Of a stretch of 64,000 nt of DNA, positions 17,697 through 36,438 are shown in pieces. Positions within the stretch are counted from its first letter, which is position 1. Every line of letters starts with the position of its first letter. The notes under the pieces were generated by a model, which saw only the letters and a list, made by a program, of their open reading frames with translations, was not told the DNA's origin and did no database searches. The translations under genes were made by a program, and so were the position numbers. The stretch is from Candidatus Alcyoniella australis (lineage in GTDB: Bacteria; Lernaellota; Lernaellaia; JAVCCG01; Alcyoniellaceae), in contig JAVCCG010000113.1 in assembly GCA_030765605.1 (NCBI GenBank), positions 1-64,000 of the forward strand. The letters run 5' to 3'.

Positions 17697-17800
17697 ATGG
17701 ACAGTTCGGTCCCGCGCTTGATCTATGAGTCGTTGCAGGCGGCTGTGGCAACGGTCACCGAAGCCAACGGCTACCACTATACGATCGGCGAGACGTTTCT
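17697..17800 (+). repeat. 104-bp direct repeat, left copy
   Basis: This repeat matches 19505-19608 with about ten differences, nine of them in the first 21 bases. The two copies bracket the cargo cassette at 17841-19414. Such an arrangement could arise from insertion with duplication, from recombination between related phages, or from misassembly of mixed strains. Confidence 0.85.
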
Positions 17801-17828
17801 GTCTGTAATTAGGAACCAGCACAACTGA
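17697..17828 (+). pseudogene. Truncated copy of the tail gene at 19505
   Basis: The first 34 codons repeat the start of the intact gene at 19505 (LIYESLQ, AVATVTEANGYHYTIGETF). After base 17800 the sequence diverges and a stop follows within 28 bases. From base 22 on, all but one of 83 positions are identical to the intact copy, so the duplication is recent. The preceding leader GAGGCAATT resembles that before the portal gene. It sits directly before the second cargo cassette. Confidence 0.85.
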
Positions 17829-17840
17829 AACGGTGATAGC

Positions 17841-18275
17841 ATGAACGTGGAATGGATAATCCAGATGGTCGTTAGGACCTCCATAGAGGATGAAGAACTG
17901 GCCCGCCTAATATAAACGTTAAAGGAGGAGTCTGATCCACTGGATTTCGAGTTTGCTGATTTGTGTGACAAATTTGAAGATGATAATGCCAAGCAAGATT
18001 GCTATGACACGAATAAAAGTATAGAAAATCAGTGTCGCGAGCTAATAGCAGCAGAGGACTTTTGTGATGACCGAACGTATGATTATCTTGCGCTGAGAAT
18101 AGTTGAGATGTATTCTATATCAATACTCCTAAAAATTATAAAGCGTACCGGGGTGGAGCATATAATAATTGAGTTGCTTAAAAAATATCATTGGACATTG
18201 CCTTCCAGTTTTAGTATTGTAGATGATATATATACATCTGAGCTCAATAAGATCTTGGCGGGTGAGGAGTATTAG
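17841..18275 (+). pseudogene. Cargo gene 1, second copy, with in-frame stop
   Basis: From ATG 17841 the frame reads MNVEWIIQMVVRTSIEDEEL, then TAA at codon 25, then continues open to 18275 (SDPLDFEFADLCDKFEDDNA, HWTLPSSFSIVDDIYTSEL). The stop corresponds to CAA (Gln) in the first copy, a single C-to-T change. The first copy's two stops correspond to sense codons here. Translation from TTG 17961 would give 104 residues. Independent nonsense mutations in the same N-terminal region of both copies suggest selection against the full product or loss of need. Recoding is less likely. Confidence 0.6.
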
Positions 18276-18307
18276 GATAAAACCATTATTGTAATAATGG
18301 AACAAGA

Positions 18308-19414
18308 ATGAAAAGCAAGAAGCTTCATGTTTTAACAGTAGCCATAATAGCAATAGTTGTTACACCCATAATAATATTTTTTTTGCAAAGCCGGGTGCAA
18401 TTAGAAATATTGGATTCGGTCGAGCTTGATCGCAAGGTGTTCCGTTCTCAATGCACTGATGAAGGATGGTGTGTCATAGGAAGAGCAAAGCATTTCACTA
18501 TATTTGGCATTGTCAACAATCGCCTGCAGCGTATATCTGAAATACTGCCTGAAGACTGTAAGTATAGCATACCATCGGACTTTAACATCAGCCCTTCAAG
18601 GCAAAGAGTGCTTTACCGGTGCAAGGATGAAATTCTGTTTTTTAACAAAGACGGCATAGAAAACAGATTGGCAATCAGTGATGCAGACGTAGATTGGTAT
18701 GATGAAGATAATTTAATCGTAATTTTAGGTAATACCGTATATCTGATGCCAATAGCACGGCCGGAATCCAAAAAGCCGCTGGTCGGGCTGAGCATTGCGC
18801 TGGCAAAGATGATGTCGGAAGAACCGAACCTGATGATAGAGGTGGTGGCGACAAGCGAGGCTGTGTTGGTGATATACGGCCGTTTTAATGTTGCTCTTTG
18901 GCGGATAGCTGATGATGCTGTAATAACTAGGAAAATCCCTACGGTTTTCTGTCTGTATGAAATACCGGGCAAGGTTTATTACCGAGACTACGAATTGAAA
19001 TATCCTTTAGCAGGAGGGGAGATACTCGATATCTCCTCTGGACAAAAGGAAAGAGCCCCATTATATAGGGCGATGTGGAGGGATGATTTTCTGGGCGAGC
19101 GAGCTGCATACGGGCTGACGCATCGGTGCAATTCTTTTCCGCGCAATCTATTTCCCAGCCCGATAAACGCAGAGCGCTTTTTAGAGCAATATTATAATGA
19201 TCGCTATCTTGATATTTACCCTGATAGCGGCGGAGAATATAAATGCATCGAGGTTCAGCATCCTGACTTTTTCTCGCTGGAGATCTTCGATGATGGGAAT
19301 CACGTGTTGGCCATTGGAGGAAATACGGTCGTGCTTTATGAGATCGTAAAACGCAGTAGAATATATATGTTTTGGCATCAGGCAATTGTGAAGCTCAAAG
19401 AATTTATTAACTGA
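18308..19414 (+). CDS. Cargo gene 2, second copy: membrane-anchored protein
   Basis: 368 residues, paralogue of the protein at 16324-17394. An N-terminal membrane segment (residues ~8-27) precedes a strand-rich outer region (LEILDSVELDRKVFRSQC, WCVIGRAKHFTIFGIVNNRL, LYRCKDEILFFNKDGIENRL, WYDEDNLIVILGNTVYLMP). Shared features with the first copy are the paired cysteines near residues 50-58, NISPS/ASPSLDR and the WYD-D segment. The sequence is strongly AT-rich. The intact frame contrasts with its broken partner gene 1, so this half of the cassette may still be expressed. No known family is recognised. Confidence 0.65.
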   Translation: MKSKKLHVLTVAIIAIVVTPIIIFFLQSRVQLEILDSVELDRKVFRSQCTDEGWCVIGRAKHFTIFGIVNNRLQRISEILPEDCKYSIPSDFNISPSRQRVLYRCKDEILFFNKDGIENRLAISDADVDWYDEDNLIVILGNTVYLMPIARPESKKPLVGLSIALAKMMSEEPNLMIEVVATSEAVLVIYGRFNVALWRIADDAVITRKIPTVFCLYEIPGKVYYRDYELKYPLAGGEILDISSGQKERAPLYRAMWRDDFLGERAAYGLTHRCNSFPRNLFPSPINAERFLEQYYNDRYLDIYPDSGGEYKCIEVQHPDFFSLEIFDDGNHVLAIGGNTVVLYEIVKRSRIYMFWHQAIVKLKEFIN

Positions 19415-19504
19415 TAAACGACAAACGCCGCTAAATCCAGGAATAGTCTATAAAAGAACTATTTCTAATACATCGCGGCTGAACCCGAATTCACAGGATA
19501 TAGC

Positions 19505-19936
19505 ATGAGCAGTTCAACTCCCAGGTTGATCTATGAGTCGTTGCAGACGGCTGTGGCAACGGTCACCGAAGCCAACGGCTACCACTATACGATCGGCGAG
19601 ACGTTTCTACATTGGCCCGACCCCGGGGAGATGGCCACCAAGGCCCCCTGCGCCAACGTGATCACCAACGGACAGTCCATCGACAGCCAGGTGGGGGCCA
19701 ACTCGCGGATCCAACTCGCCTGGCTGGTGACCGCCTGCATCAAGGTCGAAAACTCGCCCTCGACCGCGGCCCTTGACCTGGAGCAGGACCTGCGCAGCGC
19801 GCTGACGGCCGATGTGCGGCGTGGCGGCTCGGCCACGTTGACCACCATCAACTCCAGTATGCATTCCTACGGCACGGACCGCCGCGTGGTCTACGTGGTG
19901 CTCCAGGGAAGCTGCGTGTACCACGTGGGAGGGTGA
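19505..19936 (+). CDS. Phage tail-completion/terminator-like protein
   Basis: 143 residues, GC-rich again, with no signal peptide. The pattern LIYESLQTAVATVTEANGY, a mid-region LAWLVTACIKV, and DLEQDLRSALTADVRRGGSA resembles small tail-terminator or neck proteins of long-tailed phages. This is a fold-level impression only. In usual phage order such a gene lies between capsid and tail tube; here it precedes TerS, so it may have been moved. Its 5' end is duplicated at 17697. Confidence 0.5.
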   Translation: MSSSTPRLIYESLQTAVATVTEANGYHYTIGETFLHWPDPGEMATKAPCANVITNGQSIDSQVGANSRIQLAWLVTACIKVENSPSTAALDLEQDLRSALTADVRRGGSATLTTINSSMHSYGTDRRVVYVVLQGSCVYHVGG

Positions 19937-19940
19937 TCCG

Positions 19941-20336
19941 ATGGCACAAGCGACAATCAAGGCTGATCAGCCGTCGATCGCCAAGACCGTGTGCAGCCGG
20001 ATTCTCGACCACCTCAGGCACGGCCTGACCGAGGAGGGGGCCTGCGGCAAGGCTGCGATCCCCTTTGAGGAGTATCAAAAATACAAAAACGCCGACCCCG
20101 CATTTCGCCGCGAGGTCGAGCTGGCGCAGTCAGCGTCCCGCGCCAACATCGAGCAGATGGTGATCGACAAGATCATGGAGGGCGACGCGCGCATGGCGCT
20201 CGACTATCTCAAGCGCCGCTACCCCAACCAGTGGGCCGGGCACGTGAAGCATGACAGCAAGCAAAGCGAAAACGAGCAAAGCGACCAAGTCATCGAAGTC
20301 ACCCTCGGACCCGACCCGTACTATCAGCGGCACTAA
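19941..20336 (+). CDS. terS: Terminase small subunit-like protein
   Basis: 131 residues. An N-terminal helix-turn-helix region (ILDHLRHGLTEEGACGKAAI) is followed by a helical segment ending ALDYLKRRYPNQWAGH, the typical close of phage TerS proteins. TerS binds the phage packaging site and recruits TerL. Its 3' end overlaps the terL start by 86 bases, a common arrangement. The assignment rests on context and this motif. Confidence 0.7.
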   Translation: MAQATIKADQPSIAKTVCSRILDHLRHGLTEEGACGKAAIPFEEYQKYKNADPAFRREVELAQSASRANIEQMVIDKIMEGDARMALDYLKRRYPNQWAGHVKHDSKQSENEQSDQVIEVTLGPDPYYQRH

Positions 20337-21648
20337 ATCGCAGATCGCCCAGCGGCTGCTGGCAAACCCGGCCGAATTTCTGCGATTTCTCTATCCGGAG
20401 CACGAGTTCCGGCCGTTTCACTGCCAATGGCTCGAGCTGGTCGCAAACAATCGGCTGACACTGATCCTCGCGCCGCGCGGCCATGCCAAGACCACGGTGG
20501 TCACAATCTCGGAGATCGTGCGCAGGCTGCTGGCCGACCGCGATTGCCGGATATTGCTGGCGTCAAACACCCAGGATCAGGCCCGGGCGATCTATCGCAC
20601 GGTGCGCGAGCTGCTGCAAAAGCAGATCACGCCCTGCGGGCTGTTCGGCGATCCAATCGAACGCTCCATAATCAACGAACTGTGGCTGACCAAGCGTAAA
20701 AAGATCCACAAGGAGGCGAGCCTCACTGCATTGGGCGTATTCGGCGCGCTAACGCTGCGCCATTTCGACCAGATCTTTGTGGACGATGCCCTGGACTTCG
20801 AGAACACTCGCAGCGCGACCCAGCGCAAGAAGTTCCGCGAGTGGGTGGGCATGACCCTGCTGCCGACCCTTGAGCCCGGCGGGCACATCCACTGGGTGGG
20901 CACGCGCTATCACAACCAGGATTTCTACGGCGCGGAGCTGCTCGACCAGGCGCGCTACCCCACCCTGGTCTGGAACCAGGGCAGCCATCGCGCACTGCTC
21001 GAGGATGGCGGCGCATTGTGGCCCGAGCGCTTCTCGGTCCAGGAGCTGGAACAGATCAGGCAACAGGTCGGCTCGACGATCTTTGCCGCGCAATACCTCA
21101 ACGACACCCAGTTTATGCGCGGCACGATCTTCCGTGAGCAGTGGTTTCGCTACTTTCACGAGCCACCCCAGGACCCGGCGATCTACATCGGCTTTGACCC
21201 GGCGATCTCGCAATCCGAGCAGGCCGACTACTCGGCCCTGGCCGTGGTCGGACGCACAGGCCAGGACCTGTACGTGCTCGAGGCCTACAAGGGGCGCTGG
21301 ACCTTTGACGAACAGCTGCGGCTGTTGGCCCTGGCCGCGCAAAAATGGCGGCCGCTGACCATCGGCATCGAGGACGTGGCGTACCAGCGGGCTCTGATCG
21401 AGACCTGCCGAAACAACGGCTTGCCCGTTGTGGCCGTGCCCAGACGCACGGACAAGGTCTCACGGGCCTACGTGATGCAGGGGCTGTTCGAGTCCGGCAG
21501 GATCTACTTCCCGGCCGCGGGCCGACTGCACGAACTCGAGGCCGAGCTGACCGCGTTCCCCGAGGGCGAACACGACGACCTGTTCGACGCCCTGGAAACC
21601 GCGATCGGACAGGCGCAACGCCCCCATGTTGGGATAATTTTAATCTGA
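20251..21648 (+). CDS. terL: Terminase large subunit
   Basis: 465 residues. The ATPase domain has Walker A LAPRGHAKTTVV and Walker B DQIFVDDAL. The nuclease domain has YIGFDPAISQSEQADYSALA, GIEDVAYQRALIE and EHDDLFDALETAIGQ. Together they drive DNA into a capsid and cut it. The normal sequence stops at AIGQAQRP; the last residues HVGIILI are encoded by AT-rich DNA that belongs to the following cargo. The 3' end has therefore been replaced, though all catalytic motifs are kept. Confidence 0.9.
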   Translation: MTASKAKTSKATKSSKSPSDPTRTISGTKSQIAQRLLANPAEFLRFLYPEHEFRPFHCQWLELVANNRLTLILAPRGHAKTTVVTISEIVRRLLADRDCRILLASNTQDQARAIYRTVRELLQKQITPCGLFGDPIERSIINELWLTKRKKIHKEASLTALGVFGALTLRHFDQIFVDDALDFENTRSATQRKKFREWVGMTLLPTLEPGGHIHWVGTRYHNQDFYGAELLDQARYPTLVWNQGSHRALLEDGGALWPERFSVQELEQIRQQVGSTIFAAQYLNDTQFMRGTIFREQWFRYFHEPPQDPAIYIGFDPAISQSEQADYSALAVVGRTGQDLYVLEAYKGRWTFDEQLRLLALAAQKWRPLTIGIEDVAYQRALIETCRNNGLPVVAVPRRTDKVSRAYVMQGLFESGRIYFPAAGRLHELEAELTAFPEGEHDDLFDALETAIGQAQRPHVGIILI

Positions 21649-21706
21649 TTTTTCGAAATGCCTTTATTCAAAGTCTGGGCTTTATAAGTACGGCCTCTTT
21701 TGTTAA

Positions 21707-22204
21707 CATCACAGTCTGTATGATGATAATAATACTGGCAGGTGGGCTTATTATAAAAAACTAGTTAGCACACCCTTTGGTAAGGCTTTAGCCATTGGGC
21801 AAGGAGTTTCTTTTTTTCTGCTTGTTTTTCTTCCACTTTTGGGGCGCGCAGTGCCGTTACTAGCAGAGCATGCAGGCCATTTGTTGTGGGCAATCCCCTT
21901 AGGCGCATTTTCGGTGTTTTTTCTGTTGTTACCTCTTGATAGGCCTTATAAAACATATCTTGATATTGAAAATATCCTTACTATAGAAATTGGTTTATTA
22001 AAGAATCGAATTCAGAAAATCGAACATAATAGAAATGAGATGCAAAAGCAACTAGACGAATACGACCCAGACGCAGCACGTTTGTTAATAAGAAGAAAAA
22101 GAGAAGAGGCTCATAATTGGGAGAATAGATTAAAAAGCGCTTCCAACGATGATAGTGAGATGTACGAGCTGATCGCGGTGATGATGAATAAAATTGCTGC
22201 ATGA
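21707..22204 (+). CDS. Cargo membrane protein with coiled coil, start unclear
   Basis: The frame is open from 21707. It encodes two membrane segments (VSFFLLVFLPLL and LLWAIPLGAFSVFFLLLPL), then a charged helix likely to form a coiled coil (LKNRIQKIEHNRNEMQKQL). No ATG lies ahead of the first membrane segment; a TTG at 21839 would remove it. The gene may have lost its 5' end at the junction with terL. The 3' end overlaps the next gene (ATGA). The DNA is AT-rich. No family is recognised. Confidence 0.5.
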   Translation, partial: HHSLYDDNNTGRWAYYKKLVSTPFGKALAIGQGVSFFLLVFLPLLGRAVPLLAEHAGHLLWAIPLGAFSVFFLLLPLDRPYKTYLDIENILTIEIGLLKNRIQKIEHNRNEMQKQLDEYDPDAARLLIRRKREEAHNWENRLKSASNDDSEMYELIAVMMNKIAA

Positions 22205-22629
22205 ATAATAGCGCACTTGTGAAACCCATGAAATGGCCGCTGGCTGTTCATTGTATTCTGTTATTTATTATCATCGGCGTACACTGCTACTTGCTGCATC
22301 CTGTAATTGCGCTAAGCGTGACAAGCTTTCTGGCAATGGTGATTTTCAGCTATCTGATGGTCAGCGATCCGAATCGGCGTGGAAGCGAAATTCTATTATT
22401 ATTCGGATTGTACATGGTTGCTCAGTGTATTTGTCTGGCAGGCAACGGCTTTTTACTGCCCGTAACTTCATTTGAACCCTCCATGGCGATTCATAGTGCT
22501 GAGGGAATGAGTAATCCGCCCATGGACTTCACACACTATTTGATCAGCCAGCTCGCCACATCGTACATGATTTTCTCATGGGTGATCGTGTTGGTAATAG
22601 CGATTAAGTTGTATTCGAAACGTATATAG
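22201..22629 (+). CDS. Cargo four-segment membrane protein, copy A
   Basis: 142 residues with four membrane segments (about residues 12-32, 36-58, 68-90 and 115-138). It is paralogous to the next gene: KPMKWPLAVHCILLF against KSMKWLVAIHCMLLF, and FSYLMVSDPNRRGSEILLLF against FSYLMINAPGRTRNEIIVLF. No known family is recognised. The gene is translationally coupled to the preceding one. Tandem paralogues of small membrane proteins are typical of immunity or defence cargo, but nothing in the sequence proves this. Confidence 0.6.
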   Translation: MNNSALVKPMKWPLAVHCILLFIIIGVHCYLLHPVIALSVTSFLAMVIFSYLMVSDPNRRGSEILLLFGLYMVAQCICLAGNGFLLPVTSFEPSMAIHSAEGMSNPPMDFTHYLISQLATSYMIFSWVIVLVIAIKLYSKRI

Positions 22630-22685
22630 AATCAGCGATGTCAAGGGTGCGATGCGGACGTTGCTAAGGAATTACGAGTAGCAGT

Positions 22686-23111
22686 ATGGGGAACAGCACA
22701 GTCGGGAAATCCATGAAGTGGCTCGTGGCAATTCATTGCATGCTGTTGTTTTCTATCACCGTTGCGGATTGCTACTACATGCATCCTATAATCGCTTTAA
22801 TCGTAACTGCCCTGGCAGCGATGGTGCTTTTCAGTTACCTGATGATCAATGCTCCCGGCCGCACGAGAAACGAGATTATCGTGTTGTTCGGATTGTATAT
22901 GGCAGCGCTTGTCATATACCTAATGGGCAGCGGTCTGCTGATGCCCGGGACCGTCTTGGAAACGGTTTTGGAACCACGCCATATTAGGAATCTGCATAAT
23001 TCCGGGCCAATGCCCTATAGGATAAGCAGGCTCGTCACAGCCTACATGATGCTTTCGTGGCTGATCGTGCTGGCAATCATCATCACCGCTTTGCGTCGGA
23101 AGCGCAGGTAA
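22686..23111 (+). CDS. Cargo four-segment membrane protein, copy B
   Basis: 141 residues, paralogue of the preceding gene with the same four-segment layout (MKWLVAIHCMLLFSITVADC, IIALIVTALAAMVLFSYLM, LFGLYMAALVIYLMGSGLLM, AYMMLSWLIVLAIIITAL). It ends 80 bases before the portal gene. Sequence composition is intermediate between cargo and phage genes. The function is unknown. Confidence 0.6.
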   Translation: MGNSTVGKSMKWLVAIHCMLLFSITVADCYYMHPIIALIVTALAAMVLFSYLMINAPGRTRNEIIVLFGLYMAALVIYLMGSGLLMPGTVLETVLEPRHIRNLHNSGPMPYRISRLVTAYMMLSWLIVLAIIITALRRKRR

Positions 23112-23190
23112 GGATCGGAAAAAGCAACTGACGAGTCCCTTTGAATAATCCGCGTTAGACAGCTTTCCAAACAATCGAGAGGCAATTGCA

Positions 23191-24273
23191 GTGGGCAGAA
23201 TACGCGACCTGTTCCGCAGGGCTGAGAAACGCCCTAATGACAAGTATTTCCGCGCAGCCGCGGCCGAGGTCTGGCCCTACGAGGTTCAGCACGGCCGGCC
23301 GCGTCCCGACGATTTGGCCCAGGGGCTCGAGACCTCGGCGGCCCACGTCTGGGTCTACGCCTGCACCAATGCGGTGGCGCGTTGCGCCGCCCGGGTGCCG
23401 ATCGAGATCCTCAAGCCCGCGGCGCCGCGGGGACAACAGGTCACCGCGCTGCCCAGCGACCCGGTGGCCCGGCCGTTCCTGGCGGTCAACGACTTTATGT
23501 CCCAGGCCGAACTGATCGAGCTGACCGTGCTGCATTTGCTGCTCACGGGCAACGCCTACTGGGATATCGAGCGCCAGACCGGCGAGATCTGGCCGTTGCG
23601 GCCCGATCGGGTGAGCGTGGTGCCGCACTCCACCGAGTTCGTCAGCGGCTACCTCTACCGCAACCGCGGGGTGACCGTACGCTTTGACGTGGACGAGGTG
23701 GTGCACTTCAAGCTGCCCAATCCCAGCGACCCGTGGTACGGCCTGGCGCCGCTACGCGCGGCGTTCGACTCGGTTCAGGCCGACCGCTACGCGATTTTGG
23801 GCAGCAAGCAGTTCCAGCAACACGGCGCGGTGCCCGCGGGCATCCTGACCGCGCCCCACGCCCTGGACAGCGAGCAGGTCGAACGCCTGCGCGGCGAGTG
23901 GAAGCGGCTCTATGGCGGTCCCAAGGGGCGCCAGCGCGTGGCCGTGCTCCAGGGCGGCATGGACTTCCGCACGATCAGCATCAGCGCCCGCGACGCCGAA
24001 GTGATCGCCCAGCGCAAGCTCAACCGCGAGGAGATCTGCGCGGTGTTCGGCGTGCCGCCGGCGGTTGTCGGCCTGTTCGAGTACGCTAACTACGCCAACG
24101 CCGATGTCCAGGAGCGGCTGTTCTGGCGCAACACCGTGATCCCCCACGTACGGCGCATTGCCCAGCGCCTCAACGAGTCCGACGTGCTGCCCCAGGGCTG
24201 GCACGCCGAGCCCGACCTGAGCGACCTGGCAACGCTGCTCAGCGATCAGCCGACGCAAGGCCGCTCCAACTAA
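23191..24273 (+). CDS. Phage portal protein (HK97 type)
   Basis: 360 residues, GTG start. Family features include VWVYACTNAVARCAARVPIE, LLTGNAYWDIERQTGEIWPL, VDEVVHFKLPNPSDPWYGLA, GVPPAVVGLFEYANYAN and ERLFWRNTVIPHVRRI. The portal forms the ring through which TerL packages DNA. The family is usually 380-430 residues, so the C-terminal end is somewhat short (ends LLSDQPTQGRSN). It lies between two cargo stretches, separated from terL by 1.5 kb. Confidence 0.88.
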   Translation: MGRIRDLFRRAEKRPNDKYFRAAAAEVWPYEVQHGRPRPDDLAQGLETSAAHVWVYACTNAVARCAARVPIEILKPAAPRGQQVTALPSDPVARPFLAVNDFMSQAELIELTVLHLLLTGNAYWDIERQTGEIWPLRPDRVSVVPHSTEFVSGYLYRNRGVTVRFDVDEVVHFKLPNPSDPWYGLAPLRAAFDSVQADRYAILGSKQFQQHGAVPAGILTAPHALDSEQVERLRGEWKRLYGGPKGRQRVAVLQGGMDFRTISISARDAEVIAQRKLNREEICAVFGVPPAVVGLFEYANYANADVQERLFWRNTVIPHVRRIAQRLNESDVLPQGWHAEPDLSDLATLLSDQPTQGRSN

Positions 24274-24290: not shown

Positions 24291-24740
24291 ATGTCTGACC
24301 TGAGCAAAATGATCCAAGAAGCGATCGGCGAGGCGCTCGACGAGATCCATCGAGAGATGGCGGCTGAGCAGTCACTTGCTAACACCGTGAAAGTGGTTAA
24401 TGTCACTGATTTTGATTCTAAGCACTGGTGGAGGGGTGATAAGTGGTATCAAAGCAATATGTCGATGGCGCAGCATGAGCAGCCTCTCATTGACAAGCTC
24501 TCTCCCACATTCTCAACGGATGACATGGAAAGGGCTTTTGCAATCGCAGATAGCCTGAGCAATCGTATAGTGGTAAAATATCCGCGTGCAACTTGGATTG
24601 TTCCAGGATGTGGTAATCTAGCAGGGGAACTCCAACGCATGCTGTATAAAGCCTTGACAAAGGCTGATCTCGTAGAAAACTGCAAGGCATATTATATAGA
24701 GGGGGCTTTAAAAATGTTTACCCGCATGCCTATGTCATAG
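24291..24740 (+). CDS. Chimeric protein: phage N-terminus, AT-rich cargo C-terminus
   Basis: 149 residues. A strong GGAGG ribosome site and the first ~27 codons (MSDLSKMIQEAIGEAL) are GC-rich like the portal gene. From about 24372 the DNA turns AT-rich and encodes a different globular domain (VVNVTDFDSKHWWRGDKWYQ, ATWIVPGCGNLAGELQRML). The boundary looks like replacement of a phage gene's 3' part by cargo. In temperate phages the gene after the portal sometimes carries a variable toxin domain. This arrangement is similar, but no toxin motif is recognised here. Confidence 0.6.
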   Translation: MSDLSKMIQEAIGEALDEIHREMAAEQSLANTVKVVNVTDFDSKHWWRGDKWYQSNMSMAQHEQPLIDKLSPTFSTDDMERAFAIADSLSNRIVVKYPRATWIVPGCGNLAGELQRMLYKALTKADLVENCKAYYIEGALKMFTRMPMS

Positions 24741-24854
24741 TACAGAGTTATTATTGCGAAAGAGTGGAAGGGAAAACAGTGTGTTATGTTCGATATAGGC
24801 AGTACGACCCCTGGCTGGCGAGGGGACTTTTTTTAAGAAAGGCGATTAAAAAAG

Positions 24855-25280
24855 ATGTATATTAAACATTTCCTCAGGTTTTCAGCGGGATTGATGATAC
24901 TGTTCTTTTTCGTTTTTTTCTCTCTGATCGACTGGACGCTCGGACTTTTCTTTCTCGAAATAAGCGTTGCTTTGGTATTGGGGTGCTATCTCTATTTGCG
25001 AGCGGATGCTTACGCAAAGAGCCCGAGCAAATATCTCGTTGCGATGTTTATATATCATGCCTGTCTGGGGCTGATGGTGTTTTCTGTTTATCACCCGGTG
25101 TTGGGCGAGTACTTCATCGAAACGGTGATGGGGGAGCCAGCTAAATTGATGGTCTCGCTGTGGTATGCGTTCGTCTTCGTCGTGTTAATTCAAGTGGTCA
25201 GTTTTATAATATGGCTGATCATTAAGTTTTTTCGCAAAACAGTAGGTATGATTGCTTCAAAACCACGGGATGGAGAGTGA
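24855..25280 (+). CDS. Cargo membrane protein starting MYIKHFLRFSAG
   Basis: 141 residues with about four membrane segments (residues ~8-28, 31-50, 58-78 and 98-122). It lies 114 bases after the chimeric gene. Its first codons are repeated, with changes, at 25307 and 25392. No family is recognised. Its position after a variable C-terminal domain would fit a cognate immunity protein; that is inference. Confidence 0.6.
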   Translation: MYIKHFLRFSAGLMILFFFVFFSLIDWTLGLFFLEISVALVLGCYLYLRADAYAKSPSKYLVAMFIYHACLGLMVFSVYHPVLGEYFIETVMGEPAKLMVSLWYAFVFVVLIQVVSFIIWLIIKFFRKTVGMIASKPRDGE

Positions 25281-25306
25281 CGCAAATCAGGTAGGAAAAA
25301 AGTGAT

Positions 25307-25391
25307 ATGCATATTAAGCATTTCCTGCGGATAAGCATCAGCCTGATCCTGCTGGGGATCATCATTTGCGGATTCTTTTTAAAAGGTGACA
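25307..25391 (+). pseudogene. Fragment related to the 24855 gene
   Basis: It starts ATGCATATTAAGCATTTCCT and encodes MHIKHFLRISISLILLGIII, matching the N-terminal membrane segment of the 24855 protein. Similarity ends after about 25 codons, where a third copy of the 5' end begins. The frame runs on without sense into the protease gene. It is probably a decayed paralogue. Confidence 0.55.
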
Positions 25392-25451
25392 ATGTATATC
25401 CGCCATTTCCTCAGGTTTTCAGCGGGATTGAAGAACCGACTAGGACGCTGA
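25392..25451 (+). pseudogene. Second fragment related to the 24855 gene
   Basis: It encodes MYIRHFLRFSAGLKNRLGR and stops. Over its first 40 bases it is nearly identical to the start of 24855. It lies 60 bases before the protease start. With the previous fragment it shows repeated recombination at one 5' sequence. Confidence 0.6.
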
Positions 25452-25511
25452 AGCAAGTATTCAAACGAAAACAAGCAAGCTACATTCATTCCAACAGGAC
25501 AGTTGAGAACC

Positions 25512-26474
25512 ATGCGAAACAAGATCTATTCCAGCGGCCGGGTGCGGGTGGTCGACGCGGATAACTTCGTCACCGAGCACGTGATCTCCACCGAGGACGT
25601 TGACCGGGACGGCGAGGTGGTGGTCTTCGACGACCTGGAGCGCGCCGCGCGCAATTTCGTCAACAATCCGGTGGTGTTGTTTTTTCACAACGCCGATCCG
25701 GCCACGCCCAAGCTGCCCATCGGCCGCAACCTCGAGCTGCGGCGCGAGCAGGGCCGGGTGGTGGCCCGCACCCAGTTCGCGGTGCGCGAGGACCAGAGCG
25801 GGTTCACGCGCACGTTGTGGAACCTGCACGTGGGCGGCTATCTCAACGGCGTGTCCATCGGCTTCCGCCCCGAACGGGTCGAGGTCGTGGGCCAGGGCCG
25901 CGAGGCAGTGCGCGTGGTGCATGTGGACGAGCTGCTCGAGTACAGCCTGGTGCCGATCCCGGCCAACCCCGAGGCGCTGACCTCCATGGCCAAGGCCCTG
26001 GCCGATCGCCGCCGGGTCCAGCTCGGCAAGCCCTCGGCCTATGTCACGGGCTTTGCCACTGCCGACGCCGCCCTAAACGCCCTGAGCGGCGAGCGCGATC
26101 CTGGCCAGCCCGACGCCCAGCGCCGTGCAGTTCGACCTCGACGACGCGTCGGAGATCAGCGAGCACGACCTGCTGCTGGTGCCGCTGTCCACGTTGCGGG
26201 CCGTGCGTGTGGACTCCAAAAACAGCGACACGCTGTGCATCAGCCCCGCGTTGCCCACAGCCCCGGCCGGAGGCGAGACCATCGCCGCGAGTCTGGTCTA
26301 TCGGCTCAACACCCGACCGACCTCCTCGTTCACCATCACGCGTGCCGGCTCGTTTTTCTGCGAGTGGGCGGCGGGATGCTGGGTCGATTCGATCAGCCTC
26401 AGCGTATCCAGCGGCTCCGAGCCGCGACTCAAGCTCGCGGGCGGATACGCGGACAAGTCGTACGCACACTCTGA
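25512..26474 (+). CDS. Prohead protease (HK97 family), fused 3' end
   Basis: Residues 1-~190 fit HK97-type prohead proteases: VISTEDVDRDGEVVVFDDL, NPVVLFFHNADPATPKLPIG, WNLHVGGYLNGVSIGFRP and LLEYSLVPIPANPEAL, containing the catalytic His (FHN) and Ser (SIGF) regions. The protease matures the capsid scaffold. After about 26090 the frame reads through the next gene's DNA out of frame and encodes an Arg-rich nonsense tail. The major capsid gene that should follow is absent. The ATG at 25512 is preferred over TTG 25503. Confidence 0.75.
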   Translation: MRNKIYSSGRVRVVDADNFVTEHVISTEDVDRDGEVVVFDDLERAARNFVNNPVVLFFHNADPATPKLPIGRNLELRREQGRVVARTQFAVREDQSGFTRTLWNLHVGGYLNGVSIGFRPERVEVVGQGREAVRVVHVDELLEYSLVPIPANPEALTSMAKALADRRRVQLGKPSAYVTGFATADAALNALSGERDPGQPDAQRRAVRPRRRVGDQRARPAAGAAVHVAGRACGLQKQRHAVHQPRVAHSPGRRRDHRRESGLSAQHPTDLLVHHHACRLVFLRVGGGMLGRFDQPQRIQRLRAATQARGRIRGQVVRTL

Positions 26475-27156
26475 CGCGTTGAGCCAGACCGTGGGAACCA
26501 CCGACGGGACCACGATCTACGTCGAGCACCCGTACAAGTTCCGCGCCGGCACGGACGTTCCGTGCTGGGTCCAGATCGACGACGAGGTGCTCAAGGTCAC
26601 GGCGGTCGATCTTGATACCGGGGCGCTGAGCGTGGAGCGCGGAGTGCAGGGGAGCGTGGCTGCCACCCACGAACTGGCCGTAGCGGTTGAGCCCTACACG
26701 CCGACTCCGACGCTGTCCGACGCGTCGCCGTCCAGCGGCCTACTGGGCAAGCTGCGCTACGCCGACTCGACCTCGAGCGGCCTGGACCTCTACGCCACGC
26801 AGATTGAGATCGAACTCGAGAACAAGTGCAAGGCGATCAACGGCCCGTTCGGCACGGCCATCCCGCAGGGCTTTGTCAGCGGTGAGAAACGCGAGGTCAA
26901 CGTGCGACTCGGGCTGTACCTGACCCAGGACCAGGCTGAGCAGTGGGGCGCGGCCTTCAGCCGTGCGGACGTCGAGGACGTGATGCTGCAAATCGGCGTC
27001 AGCGCCGGGTCGGTGCTGGCCGCCTGTGTGCCCAAGCTACATCTAAAGCCGGTCGACATCGGAATCGAGGACGCCGAGGAGATCGTGGTCACCCTCGAGG
27101 GGCGCGCCCTGTGCGGCTCGGAGGGCAACGACGAACTGATCCTCGCTTTTCTTTAA
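26125..27156 (+). CDS. Phage tail tube-like protein, 5'-truncated
   Basis: 343 residues from GTG 26125; the frame is open only from 26086 and has no ribosome site, so the true 5' end seems lost. Strand-rich sequence is typical of tail tube or sheath-adjacent proteins. The last ~120 residues (GLDLYATQIEIELENKCKAI, VNVRLGLYLTQDQAEQWGA, VPKLHLKPVDIGIEDAEEIV, VTLEGRALCG) form a domain common to major tail proteins. It precedes the tail chaperone by 10 bases, as expected for a tail tube gene. Translation may depend on the fused protease frame or may fail. Confidence 0.6.
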   Translation: MQFDLDDASEISEHDLLLVPLSTLRAVRVDSKNSDTLCISPALPTAPAGGETIAASLVYRLNTRPTSSFTITRAGSFFCEWAAGCWVDSISLSVSSGSEPRLKLAGGYADKSYAHSDALSQTVGTTDGTTIYVEHPYKFRAGTDVPCWVQIDDEVLKVTAVDLDTGALSVERGVQGSVAATHELAVAVEPYTPTPTLSDASPSSGLLGKLRYADSTSSGLDLYATQIEIELENKCKAINGPFGTAIPQGFVSGEKREVNVRLGLYLTQDQAEQWGAAFSRADVEDVMLQIGVSAGSVLAACVPKLHLKPVDIGIEDAEEIVVTLEGRALCGSEGNDELILAFL

Positions 27157-27166
27157 GGAGGAAAAA

Positions 27167-27574
27167 ATGGAAATCAACGGACGCAAGGTGGGCGACGTGT
27201 TGACCTACGTGCCCGAGTACAACGGCAACCGCGGACTGAGCATGCACGACCGTGTGGAGGTCGACCTGCTGCCGCTGTCCAACGCGGAGTTCGAGAATTT
27301 CGCCGCCCTGGCACTGCAACCCGACCCGACGCGCGGCAACGTAGCGGCCACTGGATTGCAACGCGATCCAACCCGGCCGGTCAGATGCGTGCTGATCCAA
27401 CGCGTAAGCGCGATCCGCAACCTGCGCTTTGGCGGCAGTCCGATTGTCAGCGGAGCAGATCTCGAACGCCTGATGGACGATTATCGCTCCGAGGATCTGG
27501 CCGCGCTGATTCGCGAGATCGTGCAGGCCGCATCGGACGTCTCGACCCTGGAACAGGGCCTGCGAAAAAACTGA
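27167..27574 (+). CDS. Tail assembly chaperone G-like protein
   Basis: 135 residues with an AAGGAGG ribosome site. It lies between the tail tube and tape measure genes, the standard place for the G/GT chaperone pair. Near its 3' end a slippery heptamer allows a -1 shift into the next frame. The chaperone coats the tape measure during tail assembly. No close family is recognised from sequence; the call rests on position, size and frameshift site. Confidence 0.7.
   Translation: MEINGRKVGDVLTYVPEYNGNRGLSMHDRVEVDLLPLSNAEFENFAALALQPDPTRGNVAATGLQRDPTRPVRCVLIQRVSAIRNLRFGGSPIVSGADLERLMDDYRSEDLAALIREIVQAASDVSTLEQGLRKN
27565..27571 (+). other. Programmed -1 ribosomal frameshift site
   Basis: The heptamer A AAA AAC is in register with the zero frame (CGA AAA AAC TGA) and the zero-frame stop follows at once. 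After a -1 slip, translation continues at CTG ACC AGG into a 127-codon extension. This is the classic pattern of tail chaperone genes. Confidence 0.8.
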
Positions 27575-27954
27575 CCAGGCTCGCGGTCTTCCTTTGCGAT
27601 CCGCGATCGCGTGAGTACGACTGCGAGCGTTGCAACGAGGAACTGCGGCGCGCGCGCAACTGCCTCGACGGCTTTGAGCCCGCGCCCCAGGTCTTTGGAC
27701 CACGCGAGGCCAACCAGCGCGGCCTGGGGATCTTCACCCAGTGCCCGCGGGGGCTAATCCGTAGGCAGCCCGAGCTGCTGCATTTCTGGAACCTCTACTG
27801 CCGCTGCAGCACCCTCAAGGCGCTGCCCGGACCCGGCGGCCTCGACGATCAGGATGCGCGCACGACTCAGGCGTTGATGGCGATATCCGAGACGCTGTGC
27901 ACGCTGCAGCAGATAACCGCCGAGGCCGACTGGGCCAGAGCGAACCATAGGTGA
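27571..27954 (+). CDS. Tail assembly chaperone T extension (via -1 frameshift)
   Basis: 127 residues in the -1 frame after the slippery site (LTRLAVFLCDPRSREYDCER). There is no start codon or ribosome site of its own near the 5' end. It contains cysteines with regular spacing (CDPRSREYDCERC, CPRGLI, YCRCS). In other phages this T part of GT recruits tail tube subunits to the tape measure. It ends 5 bases before the tape measure gene. Confidence 0.75.
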   Translation: MTRLAVFLCDPRSREYDCERCNEELRRARNCLDGFEPAPQVFGPREANQRGLGIFTQCPRGLIRRQPELLHFWNLYCRCSTLKALPGPGGLDDQDARTTQALMAISETLCTLQQITAEADWARANHR

Positions 27955-27958: not shown

Positions 27959-28891
27959 ATGGCGCAGACTATTGCCAAACAGATCGAGATCGAGATCCTC
28001 GCCAAGGACCGTACGCGCGGTCTGCTTTCGCGGATCAACGCACTGATGCTCACGGCCCAACGCCGGGCCCAAGAGCTGGGTCAGAGCGCGGGCAAGGCGG
28101 CCGAAACCCTCGGCGCGCTGGGCGCGGGCTTGGATGCCGCGGCTGTTCAGCGCTACGGCGAAGGGCTGGTACTGGCCCGTTCCGAGCTCGAGACGCTCGA
28201 CCAGCGGGTGACCGCGTTGTACCAGAGTTCGCAGATTCAGTTCTCGCTGCTCAGCGAAACGGTCTACAGCGTGGGCCGTTCTTTCGACGCGGTGGGCAAC
28301 ACGTTTATCTCGGGCTTTGCCGATACGCTGATCTACGGCAGCTGGGACGCCGAGCGCGCGCTCAAGGGGCTGGGGCGCACGATCCTCACTACGCTGCTCG
28401 GCGCCCTGAGCCAGTGGGCTGTCAAGCAGCTGGTGATCAAGAGCCTGGAGTCGGCACAGATCGCGCTGCTCGCCGTGGAGCAGGGACAGGTCGCTGCGCT
28501 GACCCTGTCGTACAATGCCCTGGCCGCGGCCAAGCTCATTGCGTTGGGGCCCGCCGGCCTACTGCTGCACGGTGGCGGCGCAGTGATGCACGAGGGTGGA
28601 CCTGTGCGACGCGCACATTCCGGATTGCGCGCCGACGAAGTCGGGCCGTTCATTTTGCAGCGCGGCGAGTTCGTGATGCAGCGCAGCACGGTTCAGTCCA
28701 TCGGCTCGCAGCGCATGGCATATATCAACCAGACCGGGCAGCTGCCGCAGTCCAGTCCGACCATCAACATCACGGTCAACGCCGGCCCGGGAAGCGACGG
28801 CCGCAGGATCGGCCGCGACCTTGCTGAAGAGCTGTCCTGGCAAAGCCGCACCGGTCGGTTGCAGCTCGACCGCCGGGCGATCAGGGGTTAA
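27959..28891 (+). CDS. Short tail tape measure protein
   Basis: 310 residues. An alpha-helical N-terminal part (EILAKDRTRGLLSRINALML, AQELGQSAGKAAETLGALG) is followed by a hydrophobic helix region (TILTTLLGALSQWAVKQLVI) and a C-terminal segment HEGGPVRRAHSGLRADEVGP with FILQRGEFVMQRSTVQS, seen at the C-terminus of many tape measure proteins. Its short length predicts a short tail. It follows the frameshifted chaperone as expected. Confidence 0.75.
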   Translation: MAQTIAKQIEIEILAKDRTRGLLSRINALMLTAQRRAQELGQSAGKAAETLGALGAGLDAAAVQRYGEGLVLARSELETLDQRVTALYQSSQIQFSLLSETVYSVGRSFDAVGNTFISGFADTLIYGSWDAERALKGLGRTILTTLLGALSQWAVKQLVIKSLESAQIALLAVEQGQVAALTLSYNALAAAKLIALGPAGLLLHGGGAVMHEGGPVRRAHSGLRADEVGPFILQRGEFVMQRSTVQSIGSQRMAYINQTGQLPQSSPTINITVNAGPGSDGRRIGRDLAEELSWQSRTGRLQLDRRAIRG

Positions 28892-28894: not shown

Positions 28895-31800
28895 ATGTCT
28901 GTAAACGACCGCAAATGGACCGAGGCCAACGGGATCATCCCGGCTGGCTATTCGTCCGGCACCTGTCATCAAGTGCTCAAAGACAGCACCGACAGCAGCC
29001 TGTTCTATGCCTGCTACGGCGGCGCGGGGGGCGGGATTGTATCTATTGACTCGGACGCCGACTCGGACAATGGCGCGCAGATCGCCTATGCCGACCTGGC
29101 AAACGCCTGCGCCCTGACACAAGACGATGATTATCTATATATCGGTACTGGCGAAGCATCGGGCACTGGAGTACATCGTATCGCCAAGAGTTACCTTGCC
29201 GTGGCGGGTCCGGGCGGCGAACAAACAGCACACCTCGCTGTGTTCCTTTCGACTAGCACGGGTGAGCCGATTTACTCAAATGAGATCGGCGTGCGCGGGC
29301 TGGCGTTCAACGATAATCTTGACCACCTGGCGATCAGTTGCGGGCGGCTGTCGATCTACGACATGGAGACGCCGGGAGCCGAAGCGGTCTACGACAGCAG
29401 CGCATATTCTCCAGCCAACGGCCCGGTGGTTGCGAGTGGTGACAAGGCGTGGTGGGTCTTTAACGGAGACCGGGGCAAGGTCTGCGCAATCGACTTGACC
29501 ACGCCCGCTGCCGACGATTTCCGTCCGGACGAATGCCTAATCGATCCCAGTGACGACTTCGGCGATGCGTCGTTAGATGCGGCCCGCTGGGCCTTATACA
29601 CAGAGGGCAGCCCGTCCTCATATTCGGCGACAGAATCCGGCGGGGCGTTGACTCTCGCCCTCACCCATCGCAACAGCAGCGGGGACGACGTAATCGGAGT
29701 TGGGGGGCAGAGCTATTTAGGGGCAGCTGACTTCTCGGTTGCTGTGGACTTCGGAGCGTTGACCACCAGCGCGATCGGAGCATCCGACCTGCGGTCGATC
29801 AACCTTTACGTCCGGATCTTTGATGCAACTTGGTCGGCAAACCTGACCGGCGTAATCAGGGCGCACAAAAACCCAACGACCGAATGGGTCCAGGCAACGT
29901 TTTACCGCGGAGGGGCGCTGATATTTGACACGTCAATCAGCCCCGCGGCGTGGAGTGCCGGGGTCAAACTTTATATCGAGCGGGTAGGAACAATCGTAAC
30001 ATGCTCATACGACACCGGCGGCGGCAAGACTACGATCAACAGCAACACGCACGCTGACAACAACAACTATGACCGGCTGTGGATCGGCGGAATATATGCG
30101 ACAGACCGCGATTTAACAGCGCCATACGACTCTACCATCTCCATTCCCGTCAACGACGTGGCTGTGGTCACAACGGCTGGTTATGCCGCCCTTCCGACCG
30201 GAACGATCAACGACATCGCCTTTGCACCGGGCACCGGCACCGACATGCTGCTATTGGCGACCAACGCCGGGCTGTACAAGGTGGACACTGACACAAGCTC
30301 CGCCTGGGGCAGCTACGAGGACCTGAGCGTTGAGACGTTCGGTCAGTCCGGCTCGGGCGCGGATCACGAGATTCTGCACGGCGCGTCCGATGCGTGCGCC
30401 TGTTGCGACGTGGACAGCAGCGCCACGGGAAGCAACGGGAACACCTTCGTAGGCACCGACAAAGGCGTGTCTGTGATCGACCTGTCGGACGATACGCTGG
30501 TCGGCTGGTTCGACAGCTCGGGCGGCCAGTGGGCAGGCGATAGCATCTCGCAGTCGACCAATAACGACGCCATCGCCTGCCTGTCGATTGCCAACAATTC
30601 CAACTCCAAATTTGCCTATGGCGGATCGTCCGGACTGATCACTCCGGACGTCGACGCGCCGGGCGAGCCACAGGCCTTCGGCTATCAGGGCGATGATACG
30701 GATTGCATCCACACGCGCTGGGACCAGGCCACTGACCCGGACGTGGACTGCTACGAGATCGAGCGCAGCGGCAACGACGACGAGGGTACGTGGTATCGAC
30801 TCAAAGACGACTTCACGTGGGCCACGTCGGGCGATTACTTACAGATCGACGCCCAGGACGAGCTGTGCAGCCTGCGGATCACCGACCTGTCCACCGGCCG
30901 CTATAAGGTGCGAGTGCGGACGCGGGACTACGCCAACAACGCCGGGGACTGGACGACCTCGAGTTGGATTTACATTGGCGTTCCCAGCTCGCTGTCGATC
31001 TCGATTCTCTCGGGCTCGACCCGCACTACCACCCGCGCGGTTACGCTCACGGTCAGCGGCTACAGCCACGCCGACGCCGGGCCGATCGCCAACTACGGCA
31101 TCGATCAAATTTCCTTAAGCGACGACGATACCAACTGGGACGAATGGCGCGAGTTCACCGCAGGCGACTCCAACGATTACGACTACAACCTGCCTGTTGG
31201 CGACGGCAAGAAGACCGTGTACGTCAAGGGCCGCGACGAGGCGCAAAACGAGTCCAACAGCTATAGCTCGAGCATCGTCCTGTCCGAGGCGGGCGCCGGC
31301 TCGCTTGGCAACTACGCGGACAATGTACTGCTGGCGCTTGAGGGTACGCACTTTGAGGGCGACAACGCCACGCTGACCTCGGACTCCGAGGCCTCGGGCT
31401 ACGAGGACGACAACGTGCTCAGCGACGCCCTGGGGCAGACCTGGCGCACGACCAACGGTTCGGGCGTCAAGTACCTGCGCTTCGACCTGGGTTCGGCCAA
31501 GACGATCCATGCTGTAGCGATCCTCGGGCACAACTTCCAGTCGTCGGGCATCACGGCGCTTGATCTGAAGCTCCAAGCCAACACCACCGACACCTGGCTG
31601 ACGCCCGCGCTTGAGGTCGACCTATCGGACTATCGAGCCCTGGACCGCATCGTCTACGTCACCGGCGGCGAGACCTATCGCTACTGGCGCATTCGGATGT
31701 CCGCGACCGGGATCGTCGGCTACCTCGAGATCGGCCGGGTGGTGCTGACTTCAGCGTTCCAGCCCCTGTTCAACTTCGACGACAGCTACACCTACGATCT

Positions 31801-32110
31801 TACCGACCCCTCGCCGATCAGCCGCACCGAGGCCGGACACCGGCGCGGCAAGGTCCGCGACGTGCGGCGCGGCTATCATCTGGGCTGGAGCAAATCGATC
31901 ATGACCCTGGCCGACCAGGAAACTCTCGAGGATGCCTACTGCCAGTGCGGCGTACTACGGCCCGTGCTGGTGATTCCCGATCCGAGCACCACGGCACGGG
32001 CCTGCGCAACGGGCGTCTACGGACATCTGAGCAGCCCGCTGAGCTTTCGGCGTAGCGGCCCGGAGGACTACGCAGGCCTGACCCTTGACGTTGAGGAGAT
32101 CACCGGATGA
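28895..32110 (+). CDS. Large multidomain phage tail protein (FN3, F5/8C-like)
   Basis: 1071 residues. The N-terminal ~580 residues have repeated strand units (LADQ-type turns, TDKGVSVIDLSDDTLVGWFD) like a beta-propeller with an inserted LamG-like region. Residues ~590-690 resemble fibronectin type III (EPQAFGYQGDDTDCIHTRWD, YKVRVRTRDYANNAG). Residues ~815-950 resemble a discoidin or F5/8C domain (YLRFDLGSAKTIHAVAILGH, YRYWRIRMSATGIVGYLEIG). The last part, with RRGYHLGWSKSIMTLADQ, is like phage tail proteins. Such domains bind surface sugars or proteins, so this may be the receptor-binding tail component. The 3' end overlaps the next gene. Confidence 0.6.
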   Translation: MSVNDRKWTEANGIIPAGYSSGTCHQVLKDSTDSSLFYACYGGAGGGIVSIDSDADSDNGAQIAYADLANACALTQDDDYLYIGTGEASGTGVHRIAKSYLAVAGPGGEQTAHLAVFLSTSTGEPIYSNEIGVRGLAFNDNLDHLAISCGRLSIYDMETPGAEAVYDSSAYSPANGPVVASGDKAWWVFNGDRGKVCAIDLTTPAADDFRPDECLIDPSDDFGDASLDAARWALYTEGSPSSYSATESGGALTLALTHRNSSGDDVIGVGGQSYLGAADFSVAVDFGALTTSAIGASDLRSINLYVRIFDATWSANLTGVIRAHKNPTTEWVQATFYRGGALIFDTSISPAAWSAGVKLYIERVGTIVTCSYDTGGGKTTINSNTHADNNNYDRLWIGGIYATDRDLTAPYDSTISIPVNDVAVVTTAGYAALPTGTINDIAFAPGTGTDMLLLATNAGLYKVDTDTSSAWGSYEDLSVETFGQSGSGADHEILHGASDACACCDVDSSATGSNGNTFVGTDKGVSVIDLSDDTLVGWFDSSGGQWAGDSISQSTNNDAIACLSIANNSNSKFAYGGSSGLITPDVDAPGEPQAFGYQGDDTDCIHTRWDQATDPDVDCYEIERSGNDDEGTWYRLKDDFTWATSGDYLQIDAQDELCSLRITDLSTGRYKVRVRTRDYANNAGDWTTSSWIYIGVPSSLSISILSGSTRTTTRAVTLTVSGYSHADAGPIANYGIDQISLSDDDTNWDEWREFTAGDSNDYDYNLPVGDGKKTVYVKGRDEAQNESNSYSSSIVLSEAGAGSLGNYADNVLLALEGTHFEGDNATLTSDSEASGYEDDNVLSDALGQTWRTTNGSGVKYLRFDLGSAKTIHAVAILGHNFQSSGITALDLKLQANTTDTWLTPALEVDLSDYRALDRIVYVTGGETYRYWRIRMSATGIVGYLEIGRVVLTSAFQPLFNFDDSYTYDLTDPSPISRTEAGHRRGKVRDVRRGYHLGWSKSIMTLADQETLEDAYCQCGVLRPVLVIPDPSTTARACATGVYGHLSSPLSFRRSGPEDYAGLTLDVEEITG

Positions 32111-33894
32111 CCTGGGGACCCGACGCAAGCGATACCAGCGCAGCCTGGCATGTGCTGCTTTCTTTGGGCGGAACCGGCGCGCTGTACCTGTCGGCGGGCG
32201 AGACTATTACTCGCTCGACCCAAGGCGCGTCCCGCGTGTGGCAGGCGCTGCCGATGGATCTGGGGCCGATCGAAGAAGAGTTCTCCGACGGCCTGATCCG
32301 CGCGCCGCGCATCGGCTCGTACACGGTCGAGATTACGGACGACGACCAGGGCACGCTTCAGGCCTGGTACGAGAACAACGATGGCGCCCTGGGGCGCAAG
32401 GTCTCGATCTGGGCGTCGGACGATGACGCCACGACCGCCGAGTTGGTGTTCGACGGCGTGATCGACGAACCGTCCGATGCAGTGTTCGACTACTCGACCA
32501 AGGTGCTCGAACTGCGCGTGATGGATCGTCGCACATCCGAGGATCAGAACGTGCCGCCCAACACGTTGGACCCGGACAACCCGGACTACGAGTACATCGA
32601 CGACGCCTGGAAGGGCCGGCCGATCCCGATCCTCTACGGCGATTGGTCCGAGGGCCGGGTGCACCACAGCGGCAGCATGCGGCGACCGGTGATTGAGGCC
32701 GTGGCGATCGACACCGGAGTGCACCGCGGCGTGGGCCAGTACGCCATGCGCTTTCAGGTCTGTGATCCTGGGACCAACGGCATCGCGTACATCGGCGATC
32801 GGGTATGGATCAAGTACGGCAACTCCGCGGCACACGGCAGCGAATGGTCGTGGATGAACACCAGCTCGATCGATCTGGACACAAGCTGCTTCTCGGTCTC
32901 GACCACGGAGATCGAAGCACAGTCCTACCGCTACCAGATTGGGGATCGGTTCTTCGTCTACTGCAAGGGAAACGCGGACGGCGCGGGCAACGTGATCGAG
33001 AATCCGCTGCTGATCTTGCGCGACCTGTGGAACAACTATGCCAGCCCGGTCACGGAGAACAACGACTGGTTCGACAGCTTCAGCACCGAATACCTCCATT
33101 TCAGCGGCAGCCGGGCGCGGGCGCGGCTGGTTGACCAGGAACCGCTGATCGACGTGTCCGACCGGCTGTGCACCGAGTTCAACATGATCTGGGGCGTCAA
33201 GCCCGAGGAGTCCGGCGGGGTCTGGGATACGGTCTACTGGGCGCGGCGGTTCGATCCCTGGAACACCTCGGGCAACGCCACGCCCACGGCGGACTATCGG
33301 CCGGCCTGGGGCAGTATCAGCTCCGAGCCGATAATCAAGCCCGCAGAAACAGACCTCTATGCAGACCGTCTGCGAGTGCTGTATCGCTATCACCCGCTGC
33401 TTGAAATCTGGTCAAAGTTAAAAGAGGCCAATGTTTCCGGCCTGAAGTATTTGCCCTGGAACCCTGGCGGCGCGGGCTACGTCACGCGCGAAATCGAAAC
33501 CACCTGGCTGTGGCGCAAGGCCGACGCGTACCGCCTCATCGACCAGCAGGCTCTGCTCTATAGCCGCAAGCGCCTGGTCTGGGAGTTCCCTGCCTGGGGC
33601 TGGCCGATGAACGTCTACCTAGGGGACGCGGTCCAGTGGCAGTCCACAAACGACAACGACGCGCGGCGCGGAATCGTCATCGGCCGCCGCGTCGATCTTC
33701 AGAGCGGCGAATGCGAGTTGACCGTGCTCGACTGCTCGGATCGCGTAGAATACTACGCCCGCTGGACGTCCGACACTGAAGACGTCTACGACGACCAGGA
33801 CACGGACGGCAAACGCATCTGGGGCTTCTGGACCGACGAGGACGGGCTGTGTGATCCACCCGATTCAACCTCGGACGACAGCCACTGGATCTAA
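32107..33894 (+). CDS. Tail hub/baseplate-like protein
   Basis: 595 residues, ATGA overlap with the preceding gene. The N-terminal ~180 residues have strand patterns (APRIGSYTVEITDDDQGTLQ, KVLELRVMDRRTSEDQNVPP) and a DAWKGRPIPILYGDWSEG segment seen in phage tail tip and hub proteins. The C-terminal part (TDLYADRLRVLYRYHPLLEI, LVWEFPAWGWPMNVYLGDAV) also fits a hub. Position after the tape measure and large tail protein supports a role at the tail tip. No enzyme motif is recognised. Confidence 0.55.
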   Translation: MTWGPDASDTSAAWHVLLSLGGTGALYLSAGETITRSTQGASRVWQALPMDLGPIEEEFSDGLIRAPRIGSYTVEITDDDQGTLQAWYENNDGALGRKVSIWASDDDATTAELVFDGVIDEPSDAVFDYSTKVLELRVMDRRTSEDQNVPPNTLDPDNPDYEYIDDAWKGRPIPILYGDWSEGRVHHSGSMRRPVIEAVAIDTGVHRGVGQYAMRFQVCDPGTNGIAYIGDRVWIKYGNSAAHGSEWSWMNTSSIDLDTSCFSVSTTEIEAQSYRYQIGDRFFVYCKGNADGAGNVIENPLLILRDLWNNYASPVTENNDWFDSFSTEYLHFSGSRARARLVDQEPLIDVSDRLCTEFNMIWGVKPEESGGVWDTVYWARRFDPWNTSGNATPTADYRPAWGSISSEPIIKPAETDLYADRLRVLYRYHPLLEIWSKLKEANVSGLKYLPWNPGGAGYVTREIETTWLWRKADAYRLIDQQALLYSRKRLVWEFPAWGWPMNVYLGDAVQWQSTNDNDARRGIVIGRRVDLQSGECELTVLDCSDRVEYYARWTSDTEDVYDDQDTDGKRIWGFWTDEDGLCDPPDSTSDDSHWI

Positions 33895-35818: not shown

Positions 35819-35862
35819 TTCTTTCCTGAATAGTCCTCGATTCAACCGACATGGGAGATCCG

Positions 35863-36438
35863 ATGCGGAACCAAATGCTGCAACTGCTCGACCTGCGCCA
35901 CAGGCTGCCCGTTCACAGCAGCAAACATTGGAGGCGCAGAGAGATCGACCAAATCCGCTGCGTTGTGACCCACCAAAGTCTGGGCTCGGCCGCCGAACTC
36001 GAGCCGGGCCTGCTCACGCGCTATTTGGCCGCGTACCACGTTAAGAGCGATCCGCGCGGCACAGCCTACGGCCGCAACTGGCCGGGCCTGGCCTACCACT
36101 TCTGCATCGAGCCTTGCGGCGCGCTGATCTGGGCCAACGACCTGGAGTCCGTGACCTATCACACGGGCGGCGCGCGCAACCGCGACGGCGTGGGAATCGT
36201 AATCTGCGGCGATTTCGACGGCCCGGGCCATGCGGGAAAACATCAGCCGACAGCGGCGCAGCACCAGGCCTGGCTGCGGTTGATGGCCTGGCTCGAGCAC
36301 GACCTCCAGATCGCGCCTGCACAAATCTACGGCCACTGCGACGCTCCGGGCGGCACGCTAAAGGCCGCCTGCCCGGGCTACGTGGTCCATGGCTGGATCA
36401 AGAGCTACTCAAATGCCAAACAACGACAAAAAGCATAA
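35863..36438 (+). CDS. N-acetylmuramoyl-L-alanine amidase (Amidase_2)
   Basis: 191 residues from ATG 35863, which has GGGAGA six bases before; ATG 35851 lacks one. Motifs of the T7-lysozyme/Amidase_2 fold are IRCVVTHQSLG (first zinc His), GLAYHFCIEPCG, VTYHTGGARNRDGVGIVICG, and IYGHCDAPGG...KAACPGY (second His and zinc Cys). It should cut the amide bond between muramic acid and peptide in the cell wall for lysis or entry. The gene overlaps the next by 26 bases. Confidence 0.85.
   Translation: MRNQMLQLLDLRHRLPVHSSKHWRRREIDQIRCVVTHQSLGSAAELEPGLLTRYLAAYHVKSDPRGTAYGRNWPGLAYHFCIEPCGALIWANDLESVTYHTGGARNRDGVGIVICGDFDGPGHAGKHQPTAAQHQAWLRLMAWLEHDLQIAPAQIYGHCDAPGGTLKAACPGYVVHGWIKSYSNAKQRQKA

Follow-up and report, generated by a model that had tools for sequence, protein, structure and literature searches.

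The window, by which we mean the whole 64,000-nucleotide stretch analysed here, covers positions 1 to 64,000 of a contig 81 kb long, from a genome that is assembled in 157 contigs and rated 98% complete. It carries a cluster of phage-type particle genes in which head genes run directly into a tail module, with the following features:

19505..19936, +: 143-aa gene upstream of the small terminase; tail-terminator likeness by eye only, no PHROG match
19941..20336, +: small terminase (phrog_4102, E 5e-7)
20251..21648, +: large terminase (TerL) of an HK97-type module (phrog_38, E 3e-88; PF17289)
23191..24273, +: HK97-type portal (PF04860, E 3e-70), with a C end shorter than in related portals by alignment
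25503..26095, +: prohead protease, catalytic domain kept, C-terminal part cut off (PF04586, phrog_80/617; alignment to related proteases of 227–438 aa)
26087..26097, +: junction, an out-of-frame join of protease and tail-tube genes with capsid and connectors absent (codon-usage change point; tail profile starting at position 108; sequence unique in the genome)
26098..27156, +: tail-tube gene without about 107 N-terminal profile positions, start codon or ribosome site (family profile; PF18906, Phage_tube_2, in intact relatives)
27167..27574, +: tail assembly chaperone, first reading frame (homologs in the relatives' clusters, one of which matches phrog_344 weakly)
27565..27571, +: slippery heptamer A-AAA-AAC, a likely programmed −1 frameshift site leading to the second chaperone frame (same heptamer in all six genomes)
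27571..27954, +: −1 frame extension of the chaperone (similarity to the relatives starts near this point)
27959..28891, +: short tape measure protein, 310 aa (a homolog in each of the five relatives; weak phrog_37649)
28895..32110, +: large tail tip/fibre protein (a homolog in each of the five relatives; phrog_8610)
32107..33894, +: tail protein common to the clusters (homologs in G001–G004)
35851..36438, +: N-acetylmuramoyl-L-alanine amidase, for lysis (PF01510, E 5e-15; homolog in the G002 cluster)

Small and large terminase, portal and S78-type protease follow one another as in HK97-type head modules, but the run of portal, protease and capsid that characterizes such modules stops before the capsid: capsid and connectors are missing and the module is joined to an unrelated tail module. 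The 143-aa gene at the head of the cluster was considered as a tail terminator, which hhalign against the relatives' terminator candidates left unsupported (E 0.17). Its 5′ part (19526–19608) is duplicated over 83 bp at 98.8% identity at 17718–17800; this truncated upstream copy is followed by a low-GC gene pair (17961–19414) paralogous, at 28–29% amino acid identity, to a low-GC pair further upstream (16001–17394). The pairs within 16001–19414 look like displaced cassettes such as those of polymorphic-toxin loci, but are attached to a phage-cluster gene. Further low-GC islands (42–47%) lie at the boundaries of the high-GC head genes, at 21650–23150 and 24400–25500, and hold tandem paralogs at 22201 and 22686 (49% amino acid identity) and a 43-bp repeat (24855/25392). 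No Pfam family was found among the tested low-GC insert proteins of the window.

Junction of the protease and tail-tube genes

The protease reads in frame from 25503 to about 26090 with matches to PF04586 and phrog_80/617, the phrog_617 match covering 25515–26003. Aligned with related proteases, mostly of 227–438 aa, it ends at about residue 198. According to the original prediction, the sequence is family-like up to about 26090 and nonsense thereafter, and this proved accurate: similarity to HK97-type proteases is lost at about 26095, and codon usage, scored with a model trained on the window's other genes, favours the protease frame before and the +1 frame after a change point that is best placed at 26093–26097, with 26087–26100 scoring almost as high; we place the switch within 26087–26097.

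The downstream frame had been described as opening at 26086 with neither a start nor a ribosome site, and we found the same. It opens directly after the TGA at 26083–26085; its first start is a GTG at 26125, at which no Shine–Dalgarno-like sequence was found, followed by starts at 26179, 26194 and 26203. A tail-tube family profile built from all six genomes matches the window from 26086, only from model position 108 of 453, and the relatives of the protein are at least 444 aa long. Because the match starts at position 108 and the first 107 profile positions find no match on any contig of the genome, the junction lies inside the tail-tube gene too. Homologs of this gene are present in one copy in each of five other phylum genomes, and in G002 and G006 they stand just upstream of tape measure or chaperones. 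Longer versions in three phylum genomes match PF18906 (Phage_tube_2) above the cut-off, whereas the window protein, lacking its N-terminal part, does not match the model. An AlphaFold model of the truncated protein alone had a pLDDT of 34.5 and was left unused.

The genes that would be expected between the two partners are missing as well. In most of the related loci inspected, which come from phages and prophages with portals related to that of the window, the protease is directly followed by a capsid gene of 390–500 aa and then by connectors, as the original prediction had assumed. A protease–capsid fusion as the general state was rejected, as most related proteases are separate genes and the 13 loci inspected include one clear fusion (L124). 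The window had been said to hold no capsid gene elsewhere, and the HMM search extended this to the whole genome: no capsid was found with the PF05065 profile (controls positive), with phrog_617, of which only the protease part matches here (controls positive), with the relatives' P22-type capsid profile (positive in the relatives), or with a profile of capsids beside related proteases, which has no positive control of its own; a capsid of very divergent sequence could escape these four profiles. Removal of capsid and head–tail genes is supported by the gene order of the relatives together with the lack of a capsid-like match in the genome. The prediction that the junction removes the major capsid gene is to this extent supported, with the connectors lost as well, and needs correction in that part of the tail-tube gene is lost too.

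The junction is confirmed as real in the assembly and as more than chance. On both sides homology ends where the reading frame changes, and the lost parts are absent from the assembly. The junction DNA itself has no second copy in the genome (no other match is longer than about 21 bp at 95% identity, or 17 bp if exact), so that a repeat-driven misassembly is not indicated.

Beyond the junction, the first chaperone gene carries A-AAA-AAC at or close to its end in six of six genomes (the window and L013–L017), each time with a conserved −1 frame after it. This is the classical arrangement of tail chaperones, and a programmed −1 frameshift is likely here. A PDB profile search gave only weak matches, in repeat regions. 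Single-protein scans with tail and protease proteins found no relatives among viral contigs, and no similar sequence was found on plasmids.

Relatives within the phylum

The tail module occurs once per genome in six of seven phylum genomes. Five of the seven carry a single P22-type capsid gene and a single portal, of the phrog_145 type. A TerL of one common type is clearly present in four of these five, and most of the five relatives also have recognisable scaffold, adaptor, tail tube, chaperones, tape measure and tip proteins. Where contigs are long enough, cellular genes surround the cluster. Gene order is scrambled between the genomes, and in G003 the TerL lies about 33 kb from the rest of the cluster, on the other strand.

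The relatives' portal profile matched the five phylum genomes only, with no match in 379 sampled genomes outside the phylum. Portals are 45–65% identical within the phylum versus at most 34% to the fetched viral contigs, and TerL proteins 48–62% versus at most 33%. A strict restriction of the capsid to the phylum was rejected: viral contigs carry capsids that are 40–47% identical. As to vertical inheritance and co-diversification with the hosts, in trees of only 5–6 taxa the tip protein holds host family f3 together (100/99) and the chaperone does so weakly; nor is this family rejected by the trees of portal, capsid, tube and tape measure. On the other hand, the head type differs in the genome of the window, and the capsid of G002 resembles its kin no more closely than it does viral capsids.

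The genome of the window differs from its relatives in head type. Its TerL, searched in the seven phylum genomes, matches only itself and is absent from the six others, and the relatives' portal and capsid are both absent from its genome; we therefore regard the head type as foreign. HK97-type portals about 30% identical to that of the window occur in many Nitrospinae/Nitrospinota genomes (L046–L048, L050–L056, L058), in one of which (L050) protease and capsid-like genes adjoin the portal; these may be a further lineage in which to look for gene transfer agents.

Two further observations concern the relatives' clusters. L013 (G006:C279) has three partial tape-measure copies (12603–12756, 15126–15713 and 16859–17347), 86–95% identical in nucleotides to the full gene at 18567–19427; two of them are followed by a low-GC pair of unknown genes, the same architecture as the truncated copy and low-GC pair ahead of the full gene in the window. 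A glycosyltransferase gene lies in or beside the particle cluster in L017 (14515–16533, with two GT domains by Pfam), L016 (13203–15101) and L014 (13458–14420).

Origin and consequence of the break

We favour, with a probability of about 0.7, the following explanation. The window's cluster would be one copy of an element that derives from a caudovirus, is widespread in this small phylum and occurs once per genome. In the window a foreign HK97-type head module would have met the tail module of the phylum family, with the joint at 26090, and illegitimate recombination or a deletion would have joined protease codon ~198 to tail-tube codon ~108 out of frame. Lost in the process would be the C-terminal part of the protease, the capsid gene, the head–tail connectors and the N-terminal quarter of the tail tube. 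One recombination, or two steps consisting of a module swap and a later deletion, would fit the junction equally well.

We regard the copy as most probably defective. Its break is likely to be recent, because the other tail genes are open and the chaperone frameshift signal is intact, and other traces of recombination in the cluster, among them the 83-bp duplicate, count in favour of a break. The copy resembles defective prophages with structural-gene deletions in that its late genes are open around an out-of-frame deletion junction and in that integrase and replication genes were not recognised among the cluster genes examined. It differs from them in that its tail module is part of a set that six of seven genomes of one phylum carry in single copy, and is not that of a sporadic prophage.

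We infer that the deletion happened in the living genome, which is represented by a single, metagenome-type assembly. An assembly error is the main rival: the assembler may have passed over the capsid region or fused variants from two strains, the element of the living cell being intact. The fragmentation into 157 contigs fits such an error, and so does an out-of-frame join that leaves both genes useless. Against it, the unique junction DNA contains no extended repeat that could have led an assembler astray, neither the capsid nor the lost tail-tube N-terminus turns up on another contig, the two sides have the order and strand expected of one element, and the contig runs for 81 kb; we consider an error unlikely.

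That the capsid comes in trans from a helper phage, or from a divergent gene at another locus of the genome, is in our view very unlikely. Gene transfer agents can spread over several loci (PMC9662315), and in G003 the large terminase lies far from the rest of the cluster, but neither PF05065 and phrog_617 nor the two custom profiles found a capsid, and its supply would not mend the truncated tail tube.

The suggestion in the original prediction that the element may make tails but no heads does not agree with a tail-tube gene that lacks a start, a ribosome site and about the first 107 of 453 profile positions; judged by gene content, the copy would make neither heads nor normal tails. A selected, tailocin-like device that makes tails without capsids has in its favour the missing capsid and the open tip, chaperone, tape-measure and lysis genes, but is scarcely credible given that a tailocin has complete tail genes and has lost its head genes, whereas here the tail tube is truncated, open frames persist for TerL, portal and protease, for which a tailocin has no use, and five relatives keep the capsid.

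Relation to gene transfer agents

Gene transfer agents are defined as Caudoviricete-derived structural proteins that are endogenised, often across several loci, inherited vertically and co-diversifying with their hosts; they package mostly random host DNA, cannot package the whole of their own genome and deliver DNA to other cells (PMC9662315). The phylum family has structural proteins of this derivation (TerL, portal, scaffold, P22-type capsid and PF18906 tail tube) and is endogenised, with one copy per genome, cellular surroundings and the TerL of G003 set apart. The window's own copy, with neither a capsid gene nor a complete tail, falls outside the class. We call the five relatives a candidate gene transfer agent lineage and limit the claim to this word, because two of the defining features (PMC9662315) were found.

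Like RcGTA and BhGTA (PMC9662315), the relatives have caudovirus-derived structural and lysis genes on the chromosome, one set per genome, and the phylum clusters share with these agents a short tape measure (255–310 aa). As in the BhGTA homologs of Brachyspira (PMC9662315), gene order is scrambled or split. The capsid is of the HK97 type in RcGTA but of the P22 type in the relatives, and the phylum element differs from gene transfer agents in being known from its genes, the window's copy lacking the capsid. A limited literature search with few terms found no description of the element. We hold it possible, though at somewhat less than even odds, that the five intact relatives form an undescribed gene transfer agent lineage that is restricted to the phylum, kept vertically, conserved in content and shuffled in order, with a head module that can be swapped, as in the genome of the window, where the element would since have broken.

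The junction itself would be ordinary decay and suggests that the window's copy is dead or dying. More important is that most genomes of a little-known phylum have one set of particle genes each, and that the portal was not found in any of the 379 genomes sampled outside it. If these are true gene transfer agents, they would represent an independent domestication, and the genome of the window would offer a natural example of head replacement with subsequent loss.
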